DNA of 64,000 nt. Origin: Sulfuricella denitrificans (GTDB taxonomy: Bacteria; Pseudomonadota; Gammaproteobacteria; Burkholderiales; Sulfuricellaceae). Shown here piece by piece: positions 133 through 2,664 of the stretch; within the stretch, counting starts at the first letter, position 1, and each line of letters begins with the position of its first letter. The notes beneath the pieces are model-generated. The model had not been told where the DNA came from. It saw only the letters and a program-made list of their open reading frames with translations, and did no database searches. Both the position numbers and the translations under genes were made by a program. The stretch is taken from NCBI GenBank assembly GCA_002632355.1, contig NSJJ01000001.1:1-64000 (forward strand). Reading direction: 5' to 3'.

Positions 133-456
133 TTATTTTTTCAGGTGCTGCAGTTTGTCCTCTGCGCCATTCCACTCGTCCGCATCGGGAAGAGGATCTT
201 TCTTTTTGGTGATAACCGGCCAGGTTTTTGCCAGCACTGCATTGATTTCGAGAAACTTCTCCTGACCTGCCGGAAGGTCGGTCTCCGGGAAGATCGCAGC
301 GGCGGGGCATTCCGTCACGCATACGTCGCAATCGATGCATTCCTCAGGATCGATCACCAGGAAATTCGGCCCTTCATGAAAGCAATCCACCGGACAAACT
401 ACCGCGCAATCCGTATATTTGCAGAGGATGCAGTTTTCAGTCACGACGTAGGCCAT
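133..456 (-). CDS. fdxA: 7Fe ferredoxin, FdxA / Azotobacter FdI type
   Basis: Small soluble electron carrier of 107 residues holding one [3Fe-4S] and one [4Fe-4S] cluster. Cys9, Cys17 and Cys50 match the 3Fe ligands of Azotobacter FdI, and Cys21, Cys40, Cys43 and Cys46 match the 4Fe ligands; Cys12 and Cys25 are additional. The C-terminal extension after the clusters, ending [21 protein letters not shown], is diagnostic of this subfamily. The ATG at 456 is chosen because an AAGGAG ribosome site lies 9 bases upstream; the longer frame to 597 adds sequence unlike any ferredoxin. It is monocistronic as far as can be seen. The redox partner cannot be told from context. Confidence 0.95.
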
Positions 457-624: not shown

Positions 625-885
625 TTATTTCTTGGGTTCCATGGCCATGCTGCCGCCATGTTCCATTTTGTCGCCTTTCTCCATCTTGTCAGCCTGCTTT
701 TCCATTTTTTTCGGCTTCGCTTTCATCATCGCGCCTTCCTTGGTCATGGGTTCCTTCTTCATGGCGTCCTGAGTCATGGCGCCTTTTTCCATGGCGTCAT
801 GTTTGTCCATCGGTTCCATGGCAAATGCCAGGCTGGCGCCGCACATCAGGCACAGGGAAAGCAGTGTGGTTGAAATTTTGTTCAT
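625..885 (-). CDS. Secreted methionine/lysine-rich MXKDX-repeat peptide, MrpX-like
   Basis: 86 residues with a clear signal peptide (about residues 1-22, cleavage after SLAFA). The mature part has 13 Met in about 64 residues, arranged in Lys/Asp/Glu-rich pentads such as MEKGA, MTQDA and MKKEP. There are no cysteines after the signal peptide. Such pentapeptide MXKDX proteins are periplasmic. In Azospira suillum a methionine-rich peptide (MrpX) controlled by SigF/NrsF acts as a sacrificial hypochlorite scavenger and is recycled by a periplasmic methionine sulfoxide reductase. Here the gene is divergent from a SigF-like factor and preceded by a matching ECF promoter at 990-1018. Start supported by CAGGAG before the ATG. 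The scavenger role is inferred. Confidence 0.85.
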   Translation of the reverse strand: MNKISTTLLSLCLMCGASLAFAMEPMDKHDAMEKGAMTQDAMKKEPMTKEGAMMKAKPKKMEKQADKMEKGDKMEHGGSMAMEPKK

Positions 886-989
886 TTGGATCTCCTGTTT
901 TAAAAAATGGCATCATGGCAAAGTGCTCGATGCGGAAAACAAACCTCACGGGTTATGGCCCGAACGAAACTTCTGTCCCGTGTGCTGGT

Positions 990-1018
990 TTATTCGGGCA
1001 GACTCTAAAAAAGGTTAC
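990..1018 (-). promoter_or_regulatory. Predicted SigF-type ECF promoter of the methionine-rich peptide gene
   Basis: Read on the minus strand, GTAACC (1013-1018) is followed after exactly 16 bases by CGAA (993-996), continuing as CGAATAA. GTAACC-N16-CGAA is the form I recall for Caulobacter SigF (NrsF-controlled) promoters. It would give a leader of about 100 bases ahead of the peptide start at 885. It points at the secreted peptide and not at the sigma gene. Confidence 0.6.
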
Positions 1019-1039
1019 AAAAATTTTTCAGGACCGGGT

Positions 1040-1579
1040 TTGGCGGATAAAACAGAAAATCTCGAAGCACTGATGAAGCTGTCCCTGAATGGGGACAAGC
1101 GTGCTTATGCGCTGCTGCTGCAGGAAACCGCGCGCTTTTTGCGGCCGTTTCTGGCCCGGCGGCTCAATGTCGAGAGCGAGGTGGACGATCTGTTGCAGGA
1201 AATCCTGATCTCCGTGCACAAGGCGCGGCATACCTTTGACGGCAACCGGCCATACAGGCCCTGGGCCTTTGCCATCGCCAAATTCCGCTTGCAGGATCAT
1301 TTGCGCGCCCATTATGCCGACCACCTGCGCCACGCGGTCGAGTTGTCCGAGGTGGAAAATGATTTGCAGGAAAATGTAACCAAATCCGGCATGAGTTACG
1401 AATCCATCAGTGGAGAGGTTGAAAAGCTTCCGCCCAAACAGGCCGCCATCCTGCAGATGATGCACCAGGAGGGCTATACCGCCAGAGAAGTGGCGGAGAA
1501 GACCGGCATGAAGGAATCCGCAGTCAAGGTCGCGGCGCATCGCGCCTACAAGATATTGAGAAAGGTACTGGAACGATAA
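1040..1579 (+). CDS. sigF: ECF RNA polymerase sigma factor, SigF-like (NrsF-associated)
   Basis: About 179 residues with sigma region 2 (VDDLLQEILISVHKARHTFD, around residues 45-65) and region 4 helix-turn-helix (LPPKQAAILQMMHQEGYT through AREVAEKTGMKESAVKVAAHR). Regions 1 and 3 are absent, as in extracytoplasmic-function sigmas. TTG 1040 is preferred because AGGA lies 6 bases upstream and the protein then starts as family members do; ATG 1073 is the alternative. The stop overlaps the next ATG by one base, so it is co-translated with the anti-sigma NrsF. It is expected to be held at the membrane by NrsF and to drive the divergent methionine-rich peptide gene. Confidence 0.88.
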   Translation: MADKTENLEALMKLSLNGDKRAYALLLQETARFLRPFLARRLNVESEVDDLLQEILISVHKARHTFDGNRPYRPWAFAIAKFRLQDHLRAHYADHLRHAVELSEVENDLQENVTKSGMSYESISGEVEKLPPKQAAILQMMHQEGYTAREVAEKTGMKESAVKVAAHRAYKILRKVLER

Positions 1580-2214
1580 TGGCAAGCATCGAACAACTGG
1601 TCGATCGTCTGGCGCAGGATGCCGCCCCGGTGAAGCCTGCGCCCCATCCGCTGACGCTGAGCCTCGGATGGGCAGCGGCGGCGGCGGTCTATCTCGTGCT
1701 GTCGCTGTGGATTTCCGGCTTGCGCCCGGACCTGGCGCAGAAGCTCCATGAACCGTGGTTTCTTGCCGAACTGGGAGTTCTTGTCCTGATTTTTCTTGCC
1801 ACGTCCCTGAGCGCTGCCGTGCTGGCCTTTCCCGATCTGCACCAGATGAAGAAGACGGCCTGGGCGCCGGCTGGCCTGTTTGCGGTCTTTATTGCGATCC
1901 TGTTTTTCGCCTGGCGCGCCGACGTGCCGCCCGCACCCCTGCCCGTGCACAGCTTCGAATGCACGGCCAGCATCACCCTGTTCGCGCTTCTGCCGGCAGT
2001 CTGGACCTTCCTCTCCATGCGCAGGTTTGCCAGCACCCACTACCGCTGGGCGGGCAGTGTGGCGCTGCTTTCCGCTTTCAGCGTCGGCGCCCTGTGGCTG
2101 CTGCTGCATGAAGTGAACGATTCGGTTATCCACGTCATCGAATGGCACTACCTGCCCATGCTGGGCATCGGCCTGGCCGGCTGGTGGCTGGGGAAAAAAT
2201 GGCTGAAGTGGTAG
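1579..2214 (+). CDS. nrsF: Anti-sigma factor, NrsF / DUF1109 membrane protein
   Basis: 211 residues: a short cytoplasmic N-terminus (MASIEQLVDRLAQDA) that would contact the sigma factor, then about six hydrophobic segments. This architecture and the position directly after an ECF sigma gene are characteristic of NrsF (DUF1109). Caulobacter NrsF carries conserved cysteines needed for the stress response; here one Cys is visible in the central loop (HSFECTASI). The start ATG shares its A with the sigma stop TAA. NrsF should sequester the sigma factor until an envelope oxidant or metal signal arrives. Confidence 0.88.
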   Translation: MASIEQLVDRLAQDAAPVKPAPHPLTLSLGWAAAAAVYLVLSLWISGLRPDLAQKLHEPWFLAELGVLVLIFLATSLSAAVLAFPDLHQMKKTAWAPAGLFAVFIAILFFAWRADVPPAPLPVHSFECTASITLFALLPAVWTFLSMRRFASTHYRWAGSVALLSAFSVGALWLLLHEVNDSVIHVIEWHYLPMLGIGLAGWWLGKKWLKW

Positions 2215-2217
2215 TGC

Positions 2218-2664
2218 TTACTCAAACAGCCTGCGGTATTCCCCGTAGCCTTCTTTTTCCAGATCTTCCTTCGGGATGAAGCGCAGTGAAGCCGAGTTCA
2301 TGCAGTAACGCTGGCCGGTCGGAGCGGGGCCGTCGTCGAACAGGTGGCCGAGGTGGGAGTCGCTGTGTGCGCTGCGGACTTCGGTGCGCAGCATGAAGTG
2401 CGAGCGGTCCTGATGCAGGGTCACATTCTCCTGATCGAGCGCGCGGGTGAAACTCGGCCAGCCGGTACCGGAATCGAACTTGTCGCGCGAACTGAACAGC
2501 GGCTTGCCCGAGACGATATCGACGTAGATGCCTTCCGCATGGTTGTCCCAGTAGGCGTTGCGGAATGCCATCTCGGTGCCGTTTTCCTGGGTGACGTGGT
2601 ACTGCTCGGGACTGAGGCGTTGCTTGAGGTCCTCAGCATCGGGTTTATCGTGATGAACTGTCAT
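2218..2664 (-). CDS. msrB: Peptide-methionine (R)-S-oxide reductase MsrB
   Basis: 148 residues reducing methionine-R-sulfoxide in proteins. Family motifs are [22 protein letters not shown] and the catalytic [11 protein letters not shown]. The catalytic Cys is the only cysteine, so neither the two CxxC zinc pairs nor a usual resolving Cys is present; regeneration would need direct reduction or an external thiol. Start ATG 2664 is chosen over an upstream frame that lacks family similarity. No signal peptide, so cytoplasmic. It converges on nrsF with a 3-base gap, next to the methionine-rich peptide module, which fits an oxidant-defence theme although it is transcribed separately. Confidence 0.95.

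Follow-up and report, generated by a model that had tools for sequence, protein, structure and literature searches.

A 64,000-nt stretch of DNA from Sulfuricella denitrificans (contig NSJJ01000001.1, positions 1 to 64,000 of the forward strand; hereafter the window, to which all unprefixed coordinates refer) carries a SigF/NrsF sigma/anti-sigma factor pair next to the gene of an exported methionine-rich peptide. We interpret this locus as a variant of the known SigF/NrsF methionine-peptide systems that has a probable thiol-driven repair operon elsewhere in the genome and a probable feedback promoter within the sigma factor gene itself. As a whole, it seems probable from sequence comparison that the system is a switch that responds to envelope stress and has sacrificial methionine as its output, to which the repair operon and the intragenic promoter would contribute sulfoxide reduction and damping, respectively.

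The open reading frames of the locus agree with an initial annotation of this DNA in gene order, coordinates, the 1-base overlap of sigF and nrsF (position 1579), and the convergent msrB gene whose end lies 3 bases from that of nrsF (Table 1). The peptide has 15 methionines, 13 of them, as had been counted, in its likely mature part behind a signal peptide that, as read by eye, ends in ...LAFA; it matches the MXKDX repeat family TIGR02953 at E 7.6e-7 with 29 bits (curated cut-off 41). NrsF reaches 158 bits against PF06532 (cut-off 26.8) and 30 of the 300 bits of the NCBIfam NrsF equivalog, and sigF most likely starts at the TTG at 1040 because relatives begin with MADKTEN or MTDKTEN there. These Pfam assignments and the promoter motif bear out the proposal of a SigF/NrsF system with an exported methionine-rich peptide behind a SigF-type promoter. 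An nrsF gene behind that of an ECF sigma factor and the GTAACC-N16-CGAA promoters are shared with SigF/NrsF systems of ECF16 type, whose second conserved NrsF cysteine and promoter of SigF type ahead of sigF are absent. The promoter itself had been placed at 990-1018; its motif and its direction towards the peptide gene hold, but the motif spans only 993-1018 (minus strand). Two features had been overlooked: sigF contains a promoter-like element, and NrsF lacks its second cysteine. Throughout, G-numbers denote genomes (our own being G000) and L-numbers fetched loci.

Table 1. Features of the SigF/NrsF locus and of related sites; positions without a prefix refer to the window.
Feature	Position	Strand	Basis or remark
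Exported Met-rich peptide (MrpX/BcrX-like), 86 aa	625-885	-	Open reading frame
Predicted SigF-type promoter of the peptide gene, GTAACCTTTTTTAGAGTCTGCCCGAA	993-1018	-	GTAACC-N16-CGAA match
sigF, extracytoplasmic function (ECF) sigma factor, 179 aa, probable TTG start	1040-1579	+	Pfam Sigma70_r2, Sigma70_r4_2
Promoter-like element inside sigF, TGTAACC-N17-CGAATC	1375-1404 (GTAACC-N17-CGAA 1376-1402)	+	Motif match, nucleotide-level constraint
nrsF, membrane anti-sigma factor, 211 aa	1579-2214	+	PF06532, E 3.4e-46
Second exact extended motif	G000:C9:4367-4392		63 bases before Tat-signal MsrB gene
msrB, MsrB without visible signal peptide	2218-2664	-	SelR, E 6.9e-50
FdxA (ferredoxin) gene	133-456		Family scan
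fdxA in relatives	L183:5811-6131; L184:8621-8941

The promoter motif led to a second locus. The promoter of the Brucella peptide gene is GTAACCTTTTTCCCCTATCCAGCGAA (PMC8315932), which suggested adding a T-tract to the motif. The resulting extended form, GTAACCTTTT-N12-CGAA, matches exactly at just 2 places in the genome of 3.09 Mb, with around 0.02 exact sites per genome expected from its length alone (simple arithmetic at equal base frequencies; reversed controls were run with mismatches only). One is the peptide promoter, and the other precedes a gene for MsrB with a twin-arginine translocation (Tat) signal (DRRAFIKL), followed by the genes for a 548-aa protein and for an MsrA with a Sec-type signal, both signals having been read by eye. 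The three proteins belong, in this order, to the Pfam families SelR, DsbD_TM plus Redoxin plus Thioredoxin_10, and PMSR. The best matches of the 548-aa protein among solved structures are chains named "Protein DipZ" (E 1.3e-61), which come from M. tuberculosis; CcdA chains also match, over the N-terminal part. Given this gene order and these families behind the same type of promoter, MsrB, a transmembrane carrier of thiol electrons, and MsrA form one predicted operon, and we are rather confident that a SigF regulon comprises this distant operon together with the peptide gene. The initial annotation had suggested looking for the motif upstream of yedYZ or msrP, and it had noted that a YedY/YedZ pair is missing from the window. 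As for the latter, the MsrP/YedY family PF00174 has no match in the entire genome (MsrQ/YedZ was not searched for), with 9 of 14 control genomes positive in the same search.

Co-occurrence in relatives supports the connection. Among 22 genomes sampled from the same family, NrsF relatives are found in 11, and exact extended motifs occur in all of these and in none of the 11 others, though part of this agreement is automatic because 10 of the 21 exact sites adjoin sigF (the remainder lie before a Tat-MsrB gene in 7 cases, before a peptide gene elsewhere in 1, and in other places in 3). Full-length DipZ is present in 9/11 NrsF-positive versus 1/11 NrsF-negative family genomes and PF00174 in 2/11 versus 7/11. 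A wider sample of 28 genomes, our own included, comprises the 11 family members and 17 genomes from outside the family and represents what we call the lineage, which a single fully supported branch sets apart in the sigma factor tree. Relatives of MsrA, MsrB, or DipZ (as found with tblastn) occur in the fetched regions of 22 of the 28, each time with one of them at most 400 bp behind a GTAAC[CT]-N16-CGAA motif. Outside the family, where regions were chosen from nrsF only and cover only the sigF neighborhood, 13/17 genomes have such genes, and at least one reductase gene lies close to sigF/nrsF in loci such as L200, L161, L163, L167, L170, L215, and L030. A methionine-rich peptide was recognized in 18 of the 28, all of them among the 22 with reductase relatives; the thresholds for peptides and motifs were our own. 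Since PF00174 is absent, the second motif precedes the Tat-MsrB/DipZ/Sec-MsrA cluster, and 22 of 28 lineage genomes are alike, the output of the system is probably a thiol-driven periplasmic cycle.

The second unusual feature is the promoter-like element inside sigF, the CGAA of which ends 177 bases ahead of the start of nrsF. NrsF scored above the cut-off in 44 genomes, which we sorted into 19 of the lineage and 25 with conventional NrsF. Of the latter, 23 loci were used; G198 (L149), which lies close to a contig end, and G083 (L154), where SigF had no match, were left out. Also not scored were further copies of NrsF in three genomes that have two (G137, G195, and G097), a partial second copy in G171 (L218), and a match below the cut-off in G006. 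In a first scan of 25 lineage loci, every one has the element inside sigF (exact in 22, with one mismatch in 3), and none has such a motif on the sense strand in front of the gene. The same holds for three lineage genomes found after this pattern had been noticed, two from sampled families and one from another order (3/3 exact inside, 0/3 in front). We then applied one rule to 28 lineage and 23 conventional loci, covering 250 bp before sigF with spacers of 15 to 18 and a reversed-pattern control, and this rescan bore out the earlier counts: inside sigF, the element occurs in 28/28 lineage loci (25 exact, 3 with one mismatch; control 2) and 0/23 conventional ones (control 1), whereas in front of the gene it is found in 0/28 (control 0) and 20/23, 14 of them exact (control 1), respectively. 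Tree and codon analyses used one locus per genome with 25 or 28 rows, an early intragenic comparison 14. Across 25 aligned sigF genes, the element codons are strongly fixed (Val GTA 24/24, Thr ACC 23/25, Tyr TAC 25/25, Glu GAA 25/25), and their synonymous changes add up to 2; among codon sets matched for degeneracy and drawn from these genes, 0.013% attain this value (p 1.3e-4; post hoc in the choice of site, to which the motif had drawn attention, though the constraint measures are independent of the motif match).

From these genes and motifs we infer the following course of events. NrsF would hold SigF at the membrane until periplasmic oxidant or thiophilic stress releases it. Free SigF would then transcribe the gene of the exported peptide, a methionine sink that would take up oxidant as methionine sulfoxide, as well as the distant operon for periplasmic MsrB (via Tat), the CcdA-thioredoxin fusion of DipZ type, and periplasmic MsrA (via Sec). 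DipZ would pass thiol electrons from the cytosol across the membrane to MsrA and MsrB, which act on the two sulfoxide epimers and would thus reduce both S- and R-sulfoxides, in the peptide as well as in other envelope proteins. A thiol-driven cycle of this kind, which we consider likely, would take the place that the molybdenum pair MsrPQ, which is fed by quinones, has in Azospira and Brucella. With the onset of SigF activity, expression from the internal promoter would increase for nrsF only and thereby dampen the response. On balance we lean slightly towards a SigF-type promoter within sigF that drives nrsF in negative feedback. Whether the change is more sweeping seems evenly poised: the lineage would lack an autoinducing sigF promoter, SigF would induce only its inhibitor, and feedback would have turned from positive to negative, with an overlapping protein and promoter code under selection and coupled to the thiol-driven methionine-peptide cycle.

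Several observations weigh against this interpretation. Motif frequency gives it no help and was dropped as evidence: the short form GTAACC-N15-17-CGAA has 16 sites genome-wide versus 17 for the reversed control, and the extended form has 70 versus 111 in our own genome with up to 3 mismatches and 40 versus 30 in the 22 family genomes with up to 1. We therefore give weight only to exact extended sites, of which the second precedes the Tat-MsrB cluster. Within the family, 9 of 11 genomes have reductase genes, but the choice of regions had been guided in part by motif and DipZ hits. No methionine-rich peptide was recognized in 10 of the 28 lineage genomes, and only in 9 of the 18 peptide genomes does our script place the peptide at most 400 bp behind a motif. 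The fetched regions of six lineage genomes have no relative of MsrA, MsrB, or DipZ (G002, G020, G035, G133, G120, and G575); for G002 and G020 full-length DipZ is absent genome-wide, while the other four were judged on the fetched stretch only. Conversely, G015:C13 (L196) carries a cluster of Tat-MsrB/DipZ/MsrA type in a genome without NrsF match and on a fetched stretch without motif, so the reductase cluster can exist outside SigF control. The contrast between elements inside and in front of sigF represents one evolutionary split and not 28 events because the lineage is one side of one branch. Finally, an alignment of 10 NrsF sequences has Cys128 in all rows, but the second cysteine of the five conventional ones (in LHC) is Glu in all five from the lineage. 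From its position, the replaced residue appears to correspond to C181 in Caulobacter and C179 in Brucella. Passages on these systems state that both conserved NrsF cysteines matter in Caulobacter (PMC3511200) and propose the second one as the sensor in Brucella (PMC8315932). With lineage NrsF lacking this cysteine, sensing must differ or use other residues.

A further observation of this kind leads to a different view of the output. In G002, G005, G013, and G014 (loci L181, L185, L192, and L195), an extended SigF-type motif, with one T-tract mismatch in G005, precedes the gene of a BufA-like cysteine-rich exported peptide beside a DUF692 gene, and in G002, G013, and G014 this peptide takes the place beside sigF that the methionine-rich peptide holds elsewhere; DUF692 genes occur in the fetched regions of 8/28 lineage genomes. 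The same type of regulator can thus serve a metal-buffering output, and the system studied here could likewise be mainly a buffer for copper or other thiophilic metals, with a peptide whose methionine motifs bind Cu(I) and with reductases that repair metal-driven methionine oxidation. The MxxH and HxxM spacings visible by eye in the window peptide fit this view, as does Caulobacter SigF, for which parts of the published account describe a role in responding to chromium and cadmium as well as control over DUF2282/DUF692 operons (PMC3511200). Yet the two exact extended motifs of our own genome lie at the peptide gene and the sulfoxide-reductase cluster (DUF692 was not searched for there), and all 18 peptide genomes also carry a relative of a periplasmic reductase in the fetched regions, so we regard a primary role in metal buffering as unlikely. 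Far less credible still is what the initial annotation had proposed, a reduced version of the system with the peptide as sole output and cytosolic MsrB as the only reductase nearby. It drew on the position of msrB beside nrsF in the window, but the second SigF-type motif stands before exported MsrB, DipZ, and exported MsrA, and the adjacency is not conserved: an msrB probe found no match beside the nrsF end in other lineage regions, the nearest convergent match being around 1.9 kb away in G005 (the G055 region reaches only 269 bp past nrsF). The adjacent cytosolic msrB was consequently rejected as a partner and is probably a chance neighbor that does not belong to the system.

For the element inside sigF, the most serious objection is that it may be no promoter, with the linker between the sigma2 and sigma4 domains constrained as protein and its codon choice mimicking a SigF site. 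The V-T and Y-E residues at the element are indeed nearly invariant, and the intragenic spacer is 17, versus 16 in all 22 antisense SigF-type motifs found (scanning spacers of 15 to 18) at most 250 bp before sigF in 22/28 lineage loci. This difference in spacing is what speaks most against a functional promoter. Several signs of constraint at the nucleotide level nonetheless make this explanation rather improbable. The base before GTA is T in 23/25 genes (92%), the highest wobble identity among 31 variable columns, though it is the wobble position of a codon that specifies seven different residues; CGAATC is retained in L215, where Tyr has changed to Phe; and the Ser after Glu is encoded by TCN codons only (25/25). 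Among the 28 sigF genes, if as many as 2 rows may deviate, the longest conserved run is TACGAATC (8), followed by TGTAACC (7, a length that one other run equals); if every row must agree, CGAATC ranks first and GTAACC drops out. A site for SigF holoenzyme with another role, such as a decoy or pause site, or a signal at the RNA level would be harder still to credit. The 17-base spacer could allow binding without good firing, but both hexamers are retained, and Corynebacterium glutamicum provides a precedent for a genuine promoter in this place with its SigH-dependent anti-sigma promoter within sigH (PMC3489674). RNA structure was rejected as the cause of the conserved stretch because TGTAACC stays single-stranded in the consensus fold of 12 sequences and CGAATC is paired at its final two bases only, with a covariation term of just -0.34.

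A few observations concern the surroundings of these genes. In G008, an exact extended motif (G008:C44:1597-1622; L074/L188) precedes the gene of an exported protein of unassigned role that may be a further regulon member. The partial second NrsF frame of G171 comprises the C-terminal part only (G171:C63:23632-23934; L213, L218) and has no SigF match in the fetched stretch, and our search found no plasmid relatives of NrsF. The gene fdxA adjoins the peptide gene in the window and the Tat-msrB promoter in G004, and lies around 1.7 kb from the peptide gene in G005. Sequence of AACCGCAAAGGCGCAAAG type is visible by eye upstream of msrB (2699-2826) in both orientations, around 100 bases apart, possibly as a dispersed intergenic repeat. 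A sigma-70 promoter for sigF was discarded as a candidate after a consensus scan of 600-2700 gave a single site, at chance level, which lies within the peptide gene on the minus strand.

Compared to known systems, the locus suggests a sacrificial-methionine defense that is apparently independent of the molybdenum MsrPQ pair and serves a regulon predicted to be small. Two of the systems that invite comparison are built from other parts, as MsrAB of Haemophilus influenzae is one fused protein and SigH and RshA of C. glutamicum belong to other sigma and anti-sigma families. Among the closest systems are SigF/NrsF of Azospira suillum with the methionine-rich peptide MrpX and YedY1/YedZ (PMC5748585, PMC4623255), and BcrS/AbcS of Brucella melitensis, where the BcrXQP proteins pair a peptide with MsrQP (PMC8315932). 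With Azospira, our system shares the NrsF-type anti-sigma factor, the sigma factor, the methionine-rich peptide, and periplasmic sulfoxide reduction. Azospira relies on YedY with YedZ for the latter, however, whereas here the genes are those of MsrA, MsrB, and DipZ, and the chlorite dismutase family PF06778 has no match in the genome, for which reason endogenous hypochlorite from chlorite dismutation was discarded as an explanation. The Brucella system likewise has a GTAACCTTTTT...CGAA promoter before a methionine-rich peptide gene and a divergent sigma factor gene, but it has a second such promoter before bcrS, unlike sigF here, and reductases of MsrQP type, for which our genome has no MsrP (PF00174) match (MsrQ was not searched for; PMC8315932).

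Exported MsrA and MsrB are also found in related contexts. In the perchlorate islands of P. militaris and D. hydrogenophilus, msrA and msrB homologues are predicted to be exported and the stress genes include sigF/nrsF, yedYZ, and mrpX; these are islands of perchlorate reducers, and the relevant passages make no mention of DipZ (PMC4623255). The RpoE2/HrsE system of H. influenzae similarly places periplasmic MsrAB under an ECF sigma factor in hypochlorite defense, but its anti-sigma factor is a cytoplasmic protein of 67 aa linked to ECF group 13, and the main text of the report is without the words methionine-rich, NrsF, and CcdA (PMC7907618). In the open-licence literature, covered mostly below full-text level, we found no paper that joins a SigF-controlled peptide with MsrA/MsrB/DipZ and none that describes an intragenic NrsF promoter. 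For the latter, the best parallel is C. glutamicum, where PMC3489674 describes cotranscription of sigH-rshA from housekeeping promoters and a SigH-controlled promoter within sigH for rshA alone, with support from primer extension and promoter fusions as well as Northern blots; the corresponding arrangement in our system is a prediction from sequence. If this prediction is true, the lineage would offer a clean comparative case of a change in the sign of feedback within a sigma/anti-sigma pair, and a promoter encoded in a protein-coding gene across several bacterial families would parallel that of SigH/RshA.

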